A stretch of 43,528 nucleotides of DNA. Origin: Planctomycetota bacterium. GTDB lineage: Bacteria > Planctomycetota > Planctomycetia > Planctomycetales > Planctomycetaceae. Positions within the stretch are counted from its first letter, which is position 1; every line of letters starts with the position of its first letter. The translations under genes and the position numbers were made by a program. Shown here in pieces: positions 18,911-27,546 of this stretch. The notes below the pieces were generated by a model that saw nothing but the letters and a program-made list of their open reading frames with translations, was not told the origin of the DNA and did no database searches. Location: NCBI GenBank assembly GCA_027618475.1, contig JAQCEJ010000040.1, forward strand, positions 1 through 43,528, read 5' to 3'.

Positions 18911-21133
18911 CTACGGTATGATCACGAACTCATTCGAGTTCAGATATGCCCAGAAGACATCCTGCAGTCCTTGAGCCATCGCCAGTTGACGGTCGTCGCC
19001 CACTTGGGAATCGGCGACGCGATCAACAATGATCTTACGCCAAAGTTCCATTTCCTTTTGGGTCGGTTCGCGCGACAAGGCGGAGACGCAGAGCAGACGA
19101 AGTCGCTCTTGTTCGGTCATCCGCTTCTTAAGAAGTTCGCTCAAATAGCTCCCCCGGTCGAGACTGAGCGATTTGGAAATCATTTCGCTGTTCATCATCA
19201 ACAGCGCCAGCGACACGGTTCCTTCAAAATTGCTCATCTCGTTATTTTCGTCGGTGTTCATATTGGTGACGAACTGCTGCATCCACTGATCGCGGAGAGG
19301 CTCATCGGCTGCCCAACTGATCCGTTTCTGATTCTGAGGACGGGTCGCCACCACCAGCGAATCGTACAACTGCTCGGCAGTCATCGATTTGGGATAAACG
19401 CGGCTGAACATCGGCGGCAGTCCCGCTTCGGGATTATCGCTGAGATTGGTGTCGTTGAACTGGCTGCTCCGCTGATACGCTTCCGACAAGCAGATCCAGC
19501 GAATCAGTTTCTTCATGTCGTAACCCGAATTGACAAATTCTTGCGAGAGCCGTTCGAGTAACTCCGGATGCGTCGGCGTGTTATGCGGTCCCATATCGTC
19601 GACCGGGCTGGTAAACCCCTTGCCGAAGAAATGTTGCCACATACGATTGACCAGCGACATAGCCAACTGAGGCCGGCTCCCATCGGTCATGAGTTTGGCG
19701 AGTTCCTGCCGTCGATTGACCGCTTCGCTGCGATCGACATTCACGCCGTCAAACACCGGATACGCAACCTTCATCAGTCCACGACGGTTCTCGTAAAATT
19801 CGGGATCGCCGACCGGGTTCACCTGCAGTCGGGCAATTCGCTCGGTCTCGCCGGTTTGCGGGTTGACCAGTTCTTTACGAACGACGGTTGTCTGCTTGAA
19901 GAAGCTCTTCAATTCCCAAAACTGGTCCTGCTTCCAGTCGTTAAAAGGATGGTCGTGGCATTGAGTACATTGAACCTGCGTCCCCAGAAAAATGCGGGCG
20001 GTAATCGCCGTCGCGGGGACCGCCTGATTGTTCATGTGTGCCACAAGAAATGCCGCCGCACCGTTTTCGCGTGTGGAACCTTCGGCCGCGACAATGTCGT
20101 AAACGACCTCATTCCATGGGCGATTGTGGGCAAAGCTGTCTCGTAGAAATTTTTGAAGCGCGGGACGGTCGACATCCGGGGAGAGCGAGCGACCGATCAG
20201 CAGGTTCGTCCAGATCGTCGTCCAGTTGCGGACGAAAGCGGGATCATCCAGGAGTCGTTCGACGACCGCTTCCCGCTTCTCTCGTTGCAGGCGCGGATCG
20301 TTCAAAAACTCCAGAACCAAACCCGACGACGGAATATGCCCCACAATGTCGAGATAGACGCGACGCAGCCACTCCGAGTCGTCGGCGATCTCCGACGGCC
20401 TGACACCCGAACCCTCCAACCCCGACGCAATCTGATCGTCGATAAAGGCCACCATCTGGTCGGAGGCACCAAATCGCGAGGCCAACGCCGAACCATCGAA
20501 CGAAGAGCCATCGATGCTCGAAGCGACGTTGTCATCCGAGTCACCCGACGAATTGACGGCAAGATCTGATGTCGAAGCGGAATCGACCTTCGGATGATCG
20601 AGTTCGATCCGCTGAAGTTTTCGCGATGTGTTTCCTCTTACCGGGAGTCCGCCGTTCAGTTCGGAAGACGCTCCGTTGCCTTGGGAGGGGATCGCCGTGC
20701 GATTGGCCATCTCCAGAGCGCTCTCGCGATCGGTATTACGATTGAACAACAGGAAGGCTCCGCCGATCATACAAACAGCTGCGATTCCTGCGTTGATCAC
20801 CAATCTGTGACGCGACCGTCGGTTTGCCGCATGAGGCGTTGCCGAAGCGGAAACCGTCGCAGAACAGACCTTCTTCGTTTCTTCAGAGGACATCGATTCG
20901 TATTCATCCGAAATCGATTCCATAAAGCTATCGGTATATTGCGAAGCGACAACTCCGACGTCCCACAACAGGCTGCCGTGCAGGTCGATATATTCGAGAT
21001 ACCGCCGCATCATCGCGGGTTCGCCAAGGACAAGTTGTTCGAGTCGCGCAACCTGGGCCGATGTGAGGTTGTTCTCACACATCGCCTCGAGCAAAACATC
21101 GAGTTCCTGGTTGTTCTCGTTGAATTCAGTCAT
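18911..21133 (-). CDS. Transmembrane anti-sigma module fused to DUF1549/DUF1553
   Basis: A 740-aa fusion. Residues 1-60 carry the short planctomycete anti-sigma/FecR-type module (LDVLLEAMCENNLTSAQVARL and AMMRRYLEYIDLHGSLLWDV). A single membrane helix follows at ~111-130. The exported part holds DUF1549, with WLRRVYLDIVGHIP, the cytochrome-like CTQCHDHPFNDW (Cys389, Cys392, His393), and DUF1553 with VDDMGPHNTPTHPELLERLS, FSRVYPKSMTAEQLYDSLV and a C-terminal ending in FWAYLNSNEF. It starts 25 nt after the ECF sigma gene, as for an anti-sigma partner. The protein thus could sense through its surface cytochrome-like part and hold the sigma factor on the cytoplasmic side. The fusion is direct sequence evidence; signalling is inference. 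Confidence 0.85.
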   Translation of the reverse strand: MTEFNENNQELDVLLEAMCENNLTSAQVARLEQLVLGEPAMMRRYLEYIDLHGSLLWDVGVVASQYTDSFMESISDEYESMSSEETKKVCSATVSASATPHAANRRSRHRLVINAGIAAVCMIGGAFLLFNRNTDRESALEMANRTAIPSQGNGASSELNGGLPVRGNTSRKLQRIELDHPKVDSASTSDLAVNSSGDSDDNVASSIDGSSFDGSALASRFGASDQMVAFIDDQIASGLEGSGVRPSEIADDSEWLRRVYLDIVGHIPSSGLVLEFLNDPRLQREKREAVVERLLDDPAFVRNWTTIWTNLLIGRSLSPDVDRPALQKFLRDSFAHNRPWNEVVYDIVAAEGSTRENGAAAFLVAHMNNQAVPATAITARIFLGTQVQCTQCHDHPFNDWKQDQFWELKSFFKQTTVVRKELVNPQTGETERIARLQVNPVGDPEFYENRRGLMKVAYPVFDGVNVDRSEAVNRRQELAKLMTDGSRPQLAMSLVNRMWQHFFGKGFTSPVDDMGPHNTPTHPELLERLSQEFVNSGYDMKKLIRWICLSEAYQRSSQFNDTNLSDNPEAGLPPMFSRVYPKSMTAEQLYDSLVVATRPQNQKRISWAADEPLRDQWMQQFVTNMNTDENNEMSNFEGTVSLALLMMNSEMISKSLSLDRGSYLSELLKKRMTEQERLRLLCVSALSREPTQKEMELWRKIIVDRVADSQVGDDRQLAMAQGLQDVFWAYLNSNEFVIIP

Positions 21134-21158
21134 GATCGTTTACTATCGGTAACAGGCG

Positions 21159-21803
21159 TTAATGCGATTCGGCGGCGATCCGTCGGCTGATACAATCGAG
21201 CAGCGTTCGCCGGATGCGGCTGAGCGACTGATAGACGGCATTCACCGGCCGGCCGAATTTCGCAGCGACCGACTTTCCGTTTTCTCCTGTCGCATATCGG
21301 TTCTTGATCAGTTCTCGATCGGCCGATCTCAAATTCTCAATGCATTCGAGCATAATCCCGCGTCGGTGCTCGAGTTCATCCTGCATCTGTCTTGATTCTC
21401 GAGCGACGGCGCTGACGAATTCGCTGCTGAATTGATGTCGGTCTTTGCGGCGGCGCTCGCGATGTTTCAGAATTTCGTAATGCGAAATCTGGCAGACCCA
21501 CGCGAGAAAATGACTCCCCGGAACGAACTGTTGATACTTCTTCCAGATGATGACGTTTGTCTCCTGCAATATCTCCTCGGCATCAACCGGACTCCCCACC
21601 TGAGAGAGAATGTGCAGATAGAGACGGCGCTGGCATTTGGTGAATTCCTGCACGAATTCTGAACTGGGAGGCATCTCGCGGCGTGGTGGTGCCGAACGAT
21701 CACCATTGGCGGACTTCTTCCGCGAACGGCTATCCGATCCGGAACTTTCGCTTCCGAGAATGATCGACGATTCAGGGCCGGACGTGTCTGCAACTGTTGT
21801 CAT
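21159..21803 (-). CDS. ECF sigma factor, Rhodopirellula/Verrucomicrobium type
   Basis: A 214-aa RNA polymerase sigma factor of the ECF group. A disordered N-terminus (~1-45) precedes sigma region 2, FTKCQRRLYLHILSQVGS, then DAEEILQETNVIIWKKYQQF and FLAWVCQISHYEILKHRERR. Region 4 is near the C-terminus: ECIENLRSADRELIKNRYAT, then SVAAKFGRPVNAVYQSLSRI with a helix-turn-helix. The pattern matches the family known from Rhodopirellula and Verrucomicrobium. It is followed by the anti-sigma/DUF1549 fusion after 25 nt, and probably both are one transcript. No clear ribosome site precedes the ATG. Confidence 0.9.
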   Translation of the reverse strand: MTTVADTSGPESSIILGSESSGSDSRSRKKSANGDRSAPPRREMPPSSEFVQEFTKCQRRLYLHILSQVGSPVDAEEILQETNVIIWKKYQQFVPGSHFLAWVCQISHYEILKHRERRRKDRHQFSSEFVSAVARESRQMQDELEHRRGIMLECIENLRSADRELIKNRYATGENGKSVAAKFGRPVNAVYQSLSRIRRTLLDCISRRIAAESH

Positions 21804-21952: not shown

Positions 21953-23221
21953 TCAGCCAATCAGTTCGGCAATGGCCGTTCCGCCGTTGGTAATCTTCAT
22001 CGGACGACCATTTTTCGACGTGTAAACCTTGTCGAGCGGAATTCCCAACGCATGCGCCACGGTCGACCAGATGTCGCCGGGAACATACGACTTGCCGACA
22101 ACGCTGGTTCCGTCGGCATCGGTTTCACCGATCGCCTGGCCACCTTTCAATCCGCCGCCACCCACCATCACCGACCAGCTATTGGCCCAGTGATCGCGAC
22201 CGACATCCTGATTGATACGCGGCGTACGAGCGAATTCACCCATCCACACCAGTACGGTGTGTTCGAGCAATCCACGTTGCTTCAGGTCGTTCGTTAACGC
22301 GGCGATACCGCGATCCAACTGAGGCAGCTGATTGGTACGCAGTGCGTTAAACACGCCCGAGTGCAAATCCCAGCCGCCCATATTGACTTCCACGAACGGA
22401 ACACCGGTTTCCACCAGCCGGCGGGCCAGCAGCAACCCCTGTCCGAAGCTGTTGTCGCCGTACGCTTCTTTCACTTCCGGTTTTTCCTGATCGACCTTGA
22501 ACGCCTCCATCTGAGGCGACGTCATCAGGTTCACCGCTTTGGAATAGACTTCTTTATGAGACAACGGCGTCTCGCCGCGCTTCGACTTGATAAAGCTCGA
22601 TTCGATTTCGGCGAGCATCGTCAAACGCTGATTGAGACGTTGTTCGGTCACGCCTCCCATCGAGGCGTTTTGAATCTGGCCGTTGCTGCTCACAACGAAC
22701 GGTGCGTTGGTCATCCCCAGGAAACCGGACGATTCGCTGGGACCGCCGACGGAGACGAACGCAGGAATTTCCAGATCCTTGCGTTGTTCGCCAAGTTCGT
22801 AGCTGGCAATCGACCCGAACGTGGGATGCACGACGGTCGGATTGGGGACATAACTCGTATGCATGAAGTAGCGGCCCCGGCCATGGTCGGCTTCGCGCGT
22901 GCTCATCGAGCGGACGACCGACAGCTCGTTCATGACCTTGGCGGTCTCGGGCATATGTTCGGAGATCTGTAAATCTCCGGCGGTACTGATCGGCTTAAAT
23001 TCGCCGCCGTTCTTGGAACCCGGCTTCAAATCCCAGATGTCGATCGTCGGAGGACCACCCCCCATCCACATCAGGATGCACGCCTTCTGATTCTTCTTCA
23101 CCTGCTGGGCATTCGCCTGCAAGTGAGACAGGAACTGAAGGGCGGGAAACGTCGCCACGCCGGTGGCCACATGATTGAGGAAATGCCGACGTGACATACC
23201 TTTAGGAATGATGAGACTCAT
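21953..23221 (-). CDS. DUF1501 protein with twin-arginine signal
   Basis: A 422-aa protein of the sulfatase-like DUF1501 family. It carries a Tat signal (SRRHFLNH near residues 10-17, hydrophobic to ~36). Conserved blocks are [20 protein letters not shown] (the metal-binding Asp region), [55 protein letters not shown] and [12 protein letters not shown], and a final [19 protein letters not shown]. In planctomycetes such proteins are regularly coded beside DUF1549/DUF1553 proteins, as here. AAAGGTGGA lies upstream of the ATG. It lies 163 nt downstream of the DUF1549/DUF1553 gene. Confidence 0.92.
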
Positions 23222-23384: not shown

Positions 23385-25094
23385 TCAATGATTCGTCATA
23401 AACTCGTTCGAATTCAGCAAGGCCCAGAAAAGATCCTGATAGGCAATCACCTTATCGCGATTCACCTTGATCAATTTCCCCGCCGTTGAAAACTCACGAC
23501 TGGTAGGAGCACGCCCCAGCGACGCCAGATACAACTCTTTCACCTTCTGATTGTCCGAACCCTTCTGCGACAGCACGGAATGCAGATAGCTTCCGGGTGC
23601 GGTATTGATGGCGTTTTGCGTCAATTCCCCATTCATCATCATCAGTGCCTGCGGAATCGTGCCGTTGAAAATCGTCGCTTCATCCCCTTCATCGGTGCCG
23701 AAGGCGATGACGAACTGCTGCATCCAGCGCTGTCGTTGCGACTCGGCCTGCTCCCATCCTGCACTTCCCGATTTGTGTGCCTGAGTCGCCACGATCAGCG
23801 AGTCGTACAATTGTTCGGCCTGCAGCGCCTTGGGATACATATGGCTGAAGAGCGGAATCTCTCCGGCTGACGGATCATCGCTCTCATTCTTCGAATTAAA
23901 CTGGCTTGTGAGATTGTACGGTTCGCTGTTGCAAATCCAGCGAACCAGTTGCTTGATGTCGTAGCCGCTCTTCACGAACTCTTCGGACAGGCGATCGAGA
24001 ACTTCCGGATGCGACGGCGAATTGTGAGGGCCCATGTCGTCCACCGGGCGGGTGAATCCATATCCCATGAATTGTCCCCACGTCCGATTCACGAACGCCT
24101 GAGCGATCAACGGTTTTTCTCCTTCAACCATAAACCTCGCCAACGCCGCGCGACGGTCGGTGTCGAGGCTGTCGTCAACCTTGATATCAAAGAACGCCGG
24201 GGAGGCCGCAACCATCAGGCCGCTTCGTTTTTCATAAAAGACAGGCCCTTCGAAATCGGCACGGACGAGTTCCGAATAGTCGTCGACCTGACGACCCGAT
24301 TTTTCATCGAACTTGCGATGGTCGATCCGCCGCATCTGGCGGAAAAAGCTGTTGAATTCCCAGAAACGAGCCTGTTTCCAATCGTTGAACGGGTGATCGT
24401 GACACTGCGTGCATTGCACCTGCATGCCGAGAAACAATTTCGTCGTCTTAGCAGTCGCCTGCACCCCTTCGTCCGCCATCGTCATTTGAGCGAGCAGATA
24501 GTTCACGGCACCGTTGCGTTCGAAATGCCCTTCGGCACTGGTAATGTCGAAGACGATTTCATTCCAGGGACGATTCTTGGCAAAGGCTTCTCGCAGAAAC
24601 TTCTGCATTCCCGCCTGACTGACGCGGCGGGGAGGCTGACGGCCGATCAACAGGTTACTCCAGATCGTGGTCCAGTTTCGCACATAATCGGGGTCGTCGA
24701 GTAATTTATCGATAAGCTTCGACCGCTTGGCATCGTCGCGGTCTTCGACGAACGCTGTCACATCGGCTGACGGCGGAATATGACCCAGAATGTCGAGATA
24801 AACCCGACGAATCCATTCTTCATCGCTGGCAACTTCAGACGGCTCGATTTCGTTATCGACCCAACCCTGGCGAATCTGCTGGTTGACGAAATCGATAATG
24901 ACGTCGGACGACCCGGTGGTGAAGGAGGTCCGACTCTGAGCAGCCGAATCCGCTTCCTTCTCATCGGAAGCATCTACCGCCGCCACTTTTTTCGGCTTCG
25001 CCTGGGCTTCGGCACACGACGGCGCCACACCGACGGCCACTCCAACTCCCACGATCAGCACGATCCACAGTCGCGTTCGAATCATGTTTAACAT
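23385..25094 (-). CDS. Secreted DUF1549/DUF1553 protein
   Basis: A 569-aa exported protein. The signal peptide is at residues 8-31. DUF1549 is marked by EWIRRVYLDILGHIPPSADV and CTQCHDHPFNDWKQ (Cys228, Cys231, His232, a c-type heme-like site). DUF1553 is marked by VDDMGPHNSPSHPEVLDRLS, LVRWICNSEPYNL, LFSHMYPKALQAEQLYDSLI and FWALLNSNEF. It is the paralogue of the C-terminal 540 residues of the fusion protein at 18911-21133, but has no anti-sigma module. DUF1501 is encoded next on the same strand. The exact role of these pairs is unknown. The start may be at 25094 or at the in-frame ATG at 25085. Confidence 0.9.
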   Translation of the reverse strand: MLNMIRTRLWIVLIVGVGVAVGVAPSCAEAQAKPKKVAAVDASDEKEADSAAQSRTSFTTGSSDVIIDFVNQQIRQGWVDNEIEPSEVASDEEWIRRVYLDILGHIPPSADVTAFVEDRDDAKRSKLIDKLLDDPDYVRNWTTIWSNLLIGRQPPRRVSQAGMQKFLREAFAKNRPWNEIVFDITSAEGHFERNGAVNYLLAQMTMADEGVQATAKTTKLFLGMQVQCTQCHDHPFNDWKQARFWEFNSFFRQMRRIDHRKFDEKSGRQVDDYSELVRADFEGPVFYEKRSGLMVAASPAFFDIKVDDSLDTDRRAALARFMVEGEKPLIAQAFVNRTWGQFMGYGFTRPVDDMGPHNSPSHPEVLDRLSEEFVKSGYDIKQLVRWICNSEPYNLTSQFNSKNESDDPSAGEIPLFSHMYPKALQAEQLYDSLIVATQAHKSGSAGWEQAESQRQRWMQQFVIAFGTDEGDEATIFNGTIPQALMMMNGELTQNAINTAPGSYLHSVLSQKGSDNQKVKELYLASLGRAPTSREFSTAGKLIKVNRDKVIAYQDLFWALLNSNEFMTNH

Positions 25095-25558
25095 CTGGGA
25101 TCCCGATTCCTGCTAAAGGTTCAATTTCAGGAAGCTCCCGCTTCCTTGTGTTCAACACGCGTTTCTACGTACGATGTCGGCTACTCAACAATTCAAATTT
25201 GCTACCGTTCGTATTTTCTTCAAGCGCCCCAAAAAGTGGCTCGTTGCCATATGACAACTGCTAAAGGCGTTGATGATTGGCCGTGTCGCCTAATCATAAA
25301 ACCCGAAAACCACTTTGAATGTTCGTGGCGATTTCGATACGTTGCATATTTACATGAGTGTGCCCCAGCGCCGTAGCCACCGAGACGGCCACAACTCATT
25401 ATATCGCCGTTGCTTGTGGCATGTCCACAGAATCTGTCGTCCGATTCAATTCCGGTGACAAAAAAACCAATCCCCAGCGTAGAATCAGGGGTCGTTTTTT
25501 TCTCAAATCTCGTGGATCACAAACCGTAACGTTCGTTAACATTCGCCGAAAGTCATAG
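25095..25558. other. 464-bp divergent intergenic region
   Basis: Region between the DUF1549/DUF1553 gene (-) and the SDR gene (+), so it should hold both promoters. It is richer in A+T than the surrounding genes. I see no convincing gene. A short inverted repeat, TAACG-TT-CGTTA (25527-25538), lies 20 nt before the SDR start and could be an operator; GGGG followed by a run of seven T (25488-25500) is weakly terminator-like. Both are low confidence. Confidence 0.45.
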
Positions 25559-26347: not shown

Positions 26348-26496
26348 ACTCCCCTTGTTCGCAACATGCCGGCAAGGTATTCTCGCAAACAGCAGGCCAT
26401 TCGCATCGGCGTTCGGGGATGTGCGACGAAAAGTCGATGATCTCCATTTTCAATACCGCGAACGCCGGTATCGCCGAACGTCAAACCCAGGGGGCG

Positions 26497-27546
26497 ATGA
26501 TTATGAATCTCACACGTCGTCAAATGTTGGGAAGTTTATGCGGCGGTGCGCTGTTGCCTCTTGGATTACCGCAACGGGCACGTGCCGAAAAATCGATCGA
26601 CCCGAAAGTGGCACAAGCGGCTATTAATGCTCTCAACTATCTGGCTCGCGAACAACGCCGGCAGGGATACTGGGAAGCCAATACCGGGCAATACCGCGTC
26701 GCCATGACGGCCCTCGCCGGTACCGCCATGCTCTGCGAAGGCTCGACGACCACGCGCGGCCAATTCGCGAAGAACATTCGGCTCGCCGTCGGTTATTTGC
26801 TCGAAACCTCTCAGCCAAACGGCCTGATCGGTTACAAGAACGACTTCCATTACACTTACGGCCACGGGTTTTCGATGCTGTTTCTCTCGCAAATCTTCGG
26901 CGAAGAAGAAGATACCGAACGTCGCGAAGAACTGCAGCGTGTGCTGACCAAAGCGGTCGAATTCAGCATTTCGGCTCAGACGAATCTAGGCGGATGGGGT
27001 TACGTTTCGGCGAAGGACGGAAACAATTTCGACGAAGGCTCAACCTGTGTGACGCAGGTGCAAGGTTTAAGAGCCTGCCGCAACGCCGGCATCCCCGTTC
27101 CGAAAGAGTCGATCGAGGCGGCGATAAAATATATCCGCGACTGCATGACCCCGGACGGCGGCATTCAATACAGCATCCGCGGCGGAGGTGCCAGACCGGC
27201 AATCACCGCGGCGGCCTGTGCGACGTTGTTCAACGCCGGAGAGTACGATTCCGACCAGCTCAAGCTGATGCTCGATTACTGCAAGAAAAACGTCTGGCCC
27301 GGCGGTTCGAGCGCCCAATACTTCGGCCACTGGCATTATACCCATTATTACTTCGCACAGGTGATGTACCGCATGGGAGGGGACGACTGGGTGAAATACT
27401 TCAAAGAAATCAGTAAAGAAATCCTCTCGAAGCAATCGGCCTCGGGCGTGTGGAAAGAAGGGCACATCGGCCCGGTTTATACCACGGCCATCAACGCCAC
27501 GATTTTGCAATTGGATTACGGGTATCTGCCGATTTACCAGAAGTGA
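26497..27546 (+). CDS. Secreted terpene-cyclase-fold repeat protein (paralogue)
   Basis: A 349-aa protein with a Tat-like signal: TRRQMLGSLCGGALLPLGL. The alpha/alpha-barrel repeats have cores such as REQRRQGYWEA, QTNLGGWGYVSA, MTPDGGIQYSI and KQSASGVWKEG. No DXDD is present; the equivalent stretch reads FDEGSTCVTQVQGLRACRNAGI. It shares with the protein at 3235-4389 the YGHGF motif, RxCRNAGI.VPK, HYTHYYFAQV and a C-terminal ending in YLPIYQK (IPIFQR in the paralogue). The start at 26497 (MIMNLTRR) is favoured by GGGG just upstream; the frame opens at 26419. The catalytic role is unknown. Two small membrane-protein genes follow. Confidence 0.78.
   Translation: MIMNLTRRQMLGSLCGGALLPLGLPQRARAEKSIDPKVAQAAINALNYLAREQRRQGYWEANTGQYRVAMTALAGTAMLCEGSTTTRGQFAKNIRLAVGYLLETSQPNGLIGYKNDFHYTYGHGFSMLFLSQIFGEEEDTERREELQRVLTKAVEFSISAQTNLGGWGYVSAKDGNNFDEGSTCVTQVQGLRACRNAGIPVPKESIEAAIKYIRDCMTPDGGIQYSIRGGGARPAITAAACATLFNAGEYDSDQLKLMLDYCKKNVWPGGSSAQYFGHWHYTHYYFAQVMYRMGGDDWVKYFKEISKEILSKQSASGVWKEGHIGPVYTTAINATILQLDYGYLPIYQK

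Follow-up and report, generated by a model that had tools for sequence, protein, structure and literature searches.

A putative membrane anti-sigma factor carrying a diverged duplicate of its operon's own PSCyt2/PSD1 product in a planctomycete

What might a PSCyt2/PSD1 (DUF1549/DUF1553) protein be doing directly behind an extracytoplasmic function (ECF) sigma factor gene, in one reading frame with a membrane helix and a short helical N-terminal module? The question is raised by a 43,528-nucleotide (nt) stretch of DNA from a member of the Planctomycetaceae (GenBank assembly GCA_027618475.1, contig JAQCEJ010000040.1), here called the window, in which four genes stand in the minus-strand order stand-alone PSCyt2/PSD1, DUF1501, sigma factor and fusion. 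An earlier, sequence-only reading of the locus proposed that an anti-sigma segment joined to a catalytic part makes the enzyme itself the sensor; its overall interpretation is partly supported by the comparisons reported here, which point instead to a membrane anti-sigma factor whose sensor would be a diverged duplicate of the operon's own product, in an autoregulated operon, a reading to which we assign a probability of roughly 0.7.

The operon and the N-terminus of the fusion protein

The operon lies on the minus strand. The first gene (23385..25094) encodes the stand-alone PSCyt2/PSD1 protein of 569 amino acids (aa), with a hydrophobic N-terminus and Pfam matches to PF07583 (E 1.3e-43) and PF07587 (E 1.7e-38). 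It is followed by a 422-aa DUF1501 protein (21953..23221; PF07394, E 1e-100), whose twin-arginine-like N-terminus scores 12.2 bits on TIGR01409, under the cut-off of 16.7, and whose orthologues in the clusters of relatives are 66-73% identical; both proteins had been called from the sequence and are real by these Pfam matches. The third gene (21159..21803) encodes a 214-aa ECF sigma factor that passes the NCBIfam model TIGR02989 (Sig-70_gvs1; 142.9 bits against a cut-off of 124.55), the sole one above cut-off among the 14 matches in the genome. After an intergenic gap of 25 nt comes the 740-aa fusion (18911..21133), in which the anti-sigma module, a membrane helix, a disordered linker and the PSCyt2/PSD1 part succeed one another; the sigma factor gene, the gap and the frame with its CTQCH site lie exactly where the sequence-only reading had placed them.

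As had been described, the fusion contains one membrane helix together with PSCyt2 and PSD1 in full. PSCyt2 occupies residues 231-415 (19889..20443; Pfam E 6e-43, 147.7 bits against a gathering threshold of 29.8) and PSD1 residues 474-700 (19034..19714; E 1.4e-40, 139.7 bits against 28.5), and the CTQCH haem-c motif lies at residues 389-393 (19955..19969). The membrane helix, residues 111-130 (20744..20803), is marked by its hydrophobic sequence and lies within a helix predicted by AlphaFold2 (AF2) for residues 107-132; it is preceded by the basic stretch RRSRHR, which, by the positive-inside rule, makes the module cytoplasmic and the haem-motif part external. The stretch separating helix from outer domain (residues 133-211) is predicted to be disordered. 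The fusion had no relative by sequence in the PDB (best E 0.15), and a fold search gave no Foldseek match at E<=0.001 and a best Z of 6.6, to phycobilisome linker domains. Residues 487-653, in the PSD1 region, show a weak match to DUF1800 (E 0.047), a frequent partner of DUF1501, and PSD1 and DUF1800 may be distantly related.

Family models are silent on residues 1-151, where the strongest Pfam match had E 0.088 and NCBIfam gave none at E<=1, so that the proposed check of the N-terminus against anti-sigma and FecR families returned nothing meaningful and the assignment of residues 1-62 (20948..21133) as an anti-sigma module rests on our own comparisons. AF2 predicts three helices there (2-19, 25-37 and from 39 onward), with a predicted local distance difference test score of about 95 over residues 11-50. 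A profile of the module (27 rows) was aligned by hhalign with nine FecR-, LamG-, CBM96- or alpha-2-macroglobulin (A2M)-type N-termini at 99.4% (E 7.1e-22, 59 columns), compared with 0.4% for an unrelated control (A5). These N-termini come from nine fetched loci in which the module heads other proteins, each adjoining a related sigma factor gene, with outer parts that are FecR, LamG, FecR with LamG or CBM96 and, in one case, alpha-2-macroglobulin; an anti-sigma-like segment at the head of the fusion, as first proposed, is therefore borne out by homology. Within the 27 diverse rows an L-HG-L-W signature is conserved, with L55 invariant and L14, H52, G53 and W57 at >=90%. In a structural ranking against 294 chains the module placed RsiW first (5wuq_D, Z 6.4, 69 residues) and MucA fourth (8z6g_C, Z 5.7) and sixth (6in7_A, Z 5.2), a likeness that we regard as supporting rather than decisive on grounds given below. 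RsiW and MucA are inhibitors of their sigma factors. Matches to citrate synthase and AP-2 were put down to chance likeness of helices, a sequence comparison of the module with PDB chains gave nothing meaningful (best E 0.032, an amidohydrolase), and identification of the fusion as a FecR anti-sigma protein was ruled out, the FecR domain PF04773 finding no match at E<=1 in the 740 aa.

Amongst the module-bearing proteins of other genomes, one (L094:2301-8641, genome G047) has the module fused to a whole alpha-2-macroglobulin (MG2, A2M, TED) of 1895 aa beside a TIGR02989 sigma factor, and in G067 and G297 frames of 2157 and 2072 aa likewise begin with the module (61 genomes searched; what was matched is the module). 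A protease trap serving as the sensor of a sigma factor would be unusual.

Gene order and the fused domain in relatives

Residues 1-132, used as the query against 59 related genomes, matched in 37 of them at E<=0.1. The search took in 36 other members of the window's family, and in 26 of these module and PSCyt2/PSD1 share one frame. An in-frame stop splits the two in G009, and the fusion was not found by this search in nine family genomes (G005, G008, G016-G018, G020, G023, G029 and G032); an improved module model does match in G005, in a 799-aa frame. The improved model matches 151 of 170 family genomes (the count is of module matches), and among the matches listed most of the best module frames are about 690-900 aa, some genomes also having FecR-like matches. 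Named relatives are mostly labelled Planctomycetaceae, Schlesneria, Planctomyces or Fuerstiella. The 26 genomes, together with the named metagenome-assembled genomes, rule out a chance or assembly-artefact fusion, and the survey of planctomycete genomes that had been called for turns a supposed oddity into the usual state of the family. In-frame stops occur at L065:7594-9729 (apparently the contig of L115) and L151:10616-12793, at the junction of module/helix and PSCyt2/PSD1 in one and within PSD1 in the other, and reflect either decay or sequencing error.

Gene order was counted around 76 distinct sigma factors scoring above 150 bits on our own model, in loci L061-L176; as these loci were fetched for matching, the counts describe gene order and not how common the system is. 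A PSCyt2/PSD1 fusion lies directly downstream of the sigma factor in 61 of the 76. Written with P for the stand-alone PSCyt2/PSD1 gene, D for DUF1501, S for sigma and F for fusion, these comprise 45 PDSF, eight DSF, six SF, one PDSFD and one DSFD, i.e. the complete four-gene order is found in 46 of 76 loci, DUF1501-sigma-fusion in nine (three starting at a contig start) and sigma-fusion alone in six (five at a contig end; in L122 there are 1.8 kb upstream with no DUF1501 match). The remaining loci are three with PSCyt2/PSD1-DUF1501-sigma at a contig end, one with a split fusion and 11 with other or unmatched partners.

A further class of fusion has a different N-terminus. In four named loci (L156, L163, L173 and L175) a PSCyt2/PSD1 protein has a membrane helix and an N-terminal motif of another kind (in L173, DDPILDALLSEALGGHTPPDV), and stands beside sigma factors that score 74-93 bits and thus fall under the TIGR02989 cut-off; we refer to these as type 2 and to fusions of the window's kind as type 1. 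The type-2 motif shows no relationship to the first module (0.4% by hhalign); at E<=1e-4 it was found in 19 of 148 searched genomes from the class, the 19 loci including 12 with PSCyt2/PSD1, two with a very weak match and five with none (L196 is the same stretch as L163, and L203 has a weaker PSCyt2/PSD1 of 179 bits). The order PSCyt2/PSD1-DUF1501-sigma-fusion is present in L163, L173 and L203, and also in L200 and L214, where the outer part is weak; in L198, L199, L208 and L211 DUF1501 comes after the fusion. No shared type-2 promoter was detected: of the 22 upstream stretches compared, of which many belong to close relatives, at most eight shared any one dyad. In L200:5559-7493 and L214:5287-7317, both with the full four-gene order, the PSCyt2/PSD1 part is barely recognisable (53 and 38 bits), and may be a sensor domain that is drifting away.

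In a tree of 123 domains (PSCyt2/PSD1 matches above 400 bits and 400 residues) the 43 type-1 fusions and the L149 row fall into a single group (SH-like approximate likelihood ratio test, SH-aLRT, 99); L149 is labelled stand-alone but is cut by the contig start and is therefore probably a fusion. Type-1 fusions and stand-alone proteins of the same family together form one group (SH-aLRT 97), and type-2 fusions group with stand-alone proteins of Pirellulales and others (92). Forcing both types into one clade was rejected by the approximately unbiased (AU) test (p 0.0004) on a quick tree of 54 author-chosen rows. The test was run with the result of the first tree already known, and the 54 rows included the very long row L203_7125 and left out the near-copies L204, L210 and L212 and most rows of the larger tree. 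The simplest reading of these trees is that two separate duplications and fusions occurred. Two origins may possibly be imitated by a single fusion with a later swap of the regulatory module, or by gene conversion within an operon, from one of its two PSCyt2/PSD1 genes to the other; the AU result speaks against a single clade of both fusion types.

How the fused copies differ from the stand-alone ones was assessed with L203_7125, L149_2 and L157_3137 omitted. The two proteins of the window are 49% identical. Across the 33 loci with both, mean identity is 0.48 among the fused copies and 0.63 among the stand-alone ones, and is lower for the fused copies in 525 of 528 pairs. The CxxCH motif is kept in all type-1 fusions (43/43), all type-2 fusions (15/15) and all stand-alone proteins (69/69). 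Amongst the 92 columns conserved at >=95% in 68 stand-alone proteins, type 1 keeps 61 at the 90% level and type 2 keeps 66, whilst six are lost (<60%) in type 1 and 17 in type 2. Type 2 shares five of the six type-1 losses (N237, G267, A439, F465 and P481 in stand-alone numbering), an overlap with a hand-calculated p of about 0.0007 under random choice that is only suggestive, because sites differ in rate; in the window's fusion, only A439, F465 and P481 of the six are altered. By these sequence comparisons the fused domain is a paralogue distinct from the operon's stand-alone copy and evolving faster, and a core and haem motif that are kept whilst the rest changes faster are as expected of a receptor that has ceased to do the whole job. 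The proposal that the enzyme itself is the sensor fares less well on this account, and the literature found held no enzymatic activity for either copy. The window's genome contains 106 matches to the PSCyt2/PSD1 protein, fragments counted.

A promoter motif at the operon head

The motif CGAACATT-N14-GGTTTTAT, of ECF type, lies at 25296..25325, some 200 nt ahead of the operon's first start codon, and scores 20.0 bits on a position weight matrix (PWM). The upstream set comprised 46 of 60 stretches (window included), near-copies and stretches under 300 nt having been removed. In a dyad count over 45 distinct stretches before the stand-alone gene, CGAA-18-GGTA and shifted forms of it turned up in as many as 12, against a maximum of 6-8 in shuffles, and the untrained seed CGAAC-N17-GGT was present in 15 of 46 forward stretches, none of 46 reversed and 0.5 on average in shuffles. 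With the refined matrix CGAACRTT-N14-GKTAWTTT (spacer 17 or 18), 42 of 46 operon heads reach >=11 bits, compared with 0/46 on the reverse strand and about 1.7/46 when shuffled; trained on one half and scored on the other, the matrix recovers 38 of 46, against 1.3 in reverse.

The motif marks the operon head and not each gene. A shared promoter had been suggested upstream of the starts at 25094, 23221 and 21803; it is present upstream of 25094, whereas the best scores before 23221 and 21803 are 9.2 and 1.2 bits. Copies before the sigma factor gene (2/70 forward, 2/70 reverse) and before the fusion gene (0/69 forward, 1/69 reverse) are not enriched at >=10 bits; dyad counts before DUF1501 and sigma were not used, as they mostly mirror the coding sequence that those stretches contain. 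Before DUF1501 the matrix finds the motif in 9 of 57 cases, against none in reverse, mostly in operons with no stand-alone gene. Eight loci with available upstream DNA have sigma and DUF1501 without that gene, and in seven the motif precedes DUF1501 (11.4-17.7 bits; L080 and L121 share one of these sites); in the eighth, L085, which is of FecR type and lacks the fusion, it does not. Five loci, representing three different sites, have the motif before DUF1501 despite having a stand-alone gene.

Among 48 distinct sites scoring >=15 bits in 0.99 Mb of cluster loci (a set in which parts of some genomes appear twice), 37 are operon heads, and three of the other 11 precede DUF1501 in operons with no stand-alone gene. 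Across the 5.93-Mb genome a strict pattern matched twice, at the operon head and at C19:15117, and a control pattern not at all; a looser pattern, with 12 matches against five in the control and several of them inside frames, is not specific. The second strict match (G000:C19:15117, L217) stands about 0.7 kb before a DUF1501 - PPC - PSCyt2/PSD1 - WD40/PSCyt1 cluster, which on the basis of this motif is a candidate second target of the sigma factor. Elsewhere, stand-alone PSCyt2/PSD1 genes in L120, L148 and L155 carry the motif (15.3, 12.6 and 14.4 bits, respectively) with no sigma factor nearby, and are possibly under a sigma factor encoded at another site. The window also holds a housekeeping-like TGGACA-18-TATAAT (25398..25427, 11 of 12 consensus matches), a possible basal promoter, although one such site in the region compared with 3.8 in shuffles is not evidence by itself. 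Elsewhere in the window, at 26419-27543, a 375-aa protein with an N-terminal RRQMLG motif follows a short-chain dehydrogenase, and has weak similarity to the squalene-hopene-cyclase C-terminal domain (E 2.7e-6).

A proposed mechanism and its alternatives

In the reading that we favour, residues 1-62 would bind the sigma factor encoded just upstream and keep it at the membrane, residues 111-130 would span the membrane, and the disordered linker would reach out to a PSCyt2/PSD1 sensor facing outwards, possibly loaded with haem. The stand-alone PSCyt2/PSD1 protein would work together with the DUF1501 protein. A change in the sensor, i.e. in its haem state, in a bound ligand or in its contact with DUF1501 or the stand-alone copy, would free the sigma factor, and the loading of DUF1501 is another possible signal to the outer domain. 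Once freed, the sigma factor would transcribe the whole operon, presumably as one four-gene transcript, from the CGAAC-N17/18-GKTAW promoter at its head, which would render the system self-controlling. Such a scheme is most likely canonical in outline, its unusual feature being an outer domain that copies the first product of the operon. In a more specific form, which is conceivable but which we consider doubtful, two unrelated sigma/anti-sigma modules would each have taken a PSCyt2/PSD1 duplicate as sensor of an operon making PSCyt2/PSD1 and DUF1501, such that the membrane stand-in either competes with the real complex or monitors it, and partnerless DUF1501 or substrate engages the stand-in and frees the sigma factor.

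Several observations weigh against the membrane anti-sigma reading. The Z values of the module with RsiW and MucA are all below 8, the level that the tool calls safe, its Foldseek search gave no match at E<=0.001 (anti-sigma matches had E 3-7), and ChrR, also an anti-sigma factor, fits it poorly (Z 3.2, root-mean-square deviation 9.0); hence our view of the fold likeness as supporting only. The PWM was scored on its own training sequences except in the test on held-out halves, and the motif is absent at four of 46 clusters (L068, L071, L076 and L144). Amongst 34 control stretches from loci, type-2 ones among them, that have no sigma factor above 150 bits, five reach 11 bits (none when reversed): L123 and L126, where the contig ends before a sigma factor could show; L120, where the 2.9 kb following DUF1501 contain no sigma factor; and L148 and L155, with neither a DUF1501 nor a sigma match in the locus. 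The motif accordingly tracks the sigma factor closely but not perfectly. A CxxCH motif is no proof of haem, and the longer CxxCHxHPF is kept in 33 of 43 type-1 fusions and 63 of 69 stand-alone proteins but in only two of 15 of type 2. Finally, the anti-sigma role of the FecR/LamG-type proteins is itself inferred, and by analogy with a FecR system the module could be an activator.

In that case the N-terminus would be needed for sigma activity, as a pro-sigma chaperone or a signal-dependent activator, with PSCyt2/PSD1 still sensing; most proteins with the homologous N-termini have a FecR domain, but the fusion has no FecR domain match and the best structural matches of its module are the inhibitors RsiW and MucA, and we judge an activating role to be distinctly unlikely. 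The analogy is with Escherichia coli FecR, of which the N-terminus, 59 residues, is required for ECF sigma activity according to the relevant passage of PMC7406223. Rather unlikely, in our estimation, is that the fused PSCyt2/PSD1 domain is a trigger enzyme, i.e. a working partner of DUF1501 that reports on its own activity. Retention of CxxCH and of about two thirds of the stand-alone signature (61/92 columns) would fit this, as would the three of six type-1-lost positions that the window's fusion retains and the four type-2 loci (L198, L199, L208 and L211) with fusion then DUF1501 and no other PSCyt2/PSD1 gene matched; it is opposed by the separate stand-alone copy in the same operon in 46 of 76 sigma loci, by the faster divergence of the fused copy and by the loss in type 2 of five of the six positions lost in type 1. 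That the module is a leftover membrane anchor, the sigma factor being controlled by other means, appears highly improbable: some members are weak to the module model (28 bits in L144 and L151), but the L-HG-L-W signature is invariant or >=90% at its key positions and in 61 of 76 loci the fusion gene directly adjoins that of the sigma factor.

The anti-sigma reading can be set beside systems already described. The ECF sigma factor RB10049 of Rhodopirellula baltica is reported to rise under heat, cold and salt, all three stresses, and Studholme et al., as cited in the same paper, propose that it regulates the PSD1/PSC2 protein RB10051 (PMC2754498), so that the pairing of a sigma factor with a PSCyt2/PSD1 protein, which the window system shares, is already known; the passage on this pair, unlike what is found here, mentions no anti-sigma part or fusion. 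Planctomycete FecR/LamG-type proteins beside TIGR02989-like sigma factors (that of L094 scores 142.2 bits on TIGR02989) have an N-terminal module homologous to that of the window's fusion, but an outer part of FecR, Laminin_G, CBM96 or alpha-2-macroglobulin in place of PSCyt2/PSD1. With class I anti-sigma factors (RsiW, MucA, ChrR) the fusion shares a membrane helix followed by an outer part, and its predicted helical N-terminus may resemble those of RsiW and MucA; it differs in a module with no meaningful PDB sequence match and in a much larger, haem-motif outer domain. Planctomycete-specific cytochrome PSCyt2-PSD1 proteins have the same Pfam domains as the fusion but are described without a sigma-binding module, whereas here one copy has both module and membrane helix. 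In the literature found, the fusion, the promoter and the second class were not described, although mention in Studholme 2004, Jogler 2012, Wiegand 2020 or Casas-Pastor 2021 is possible; PMC2754498 was the only paper found joining DUF1549/DUF1553 and a sigma factor, and none was found joining anti-sigma with DUF1549, or DUF1501 with DUF1553.

PSCyt2/PSD1 proteins form a very large, strongly multiplied planctomycete family, with dozens of paralogues in one genome. The apparent repetition of the same design with another type of sigma factor suggests that it is the sensor domain, and not the module, that was chosen again. Built into a receptor with a defined sigma factor and promoter, PSCyt2/PSD1 becomes a domain whose function is testable, and, if the sensing of a paralogue as outlined above were true, it would offer a first handle on the extracellular role of the PSCyt2/PSD1-DUF1501 pair.

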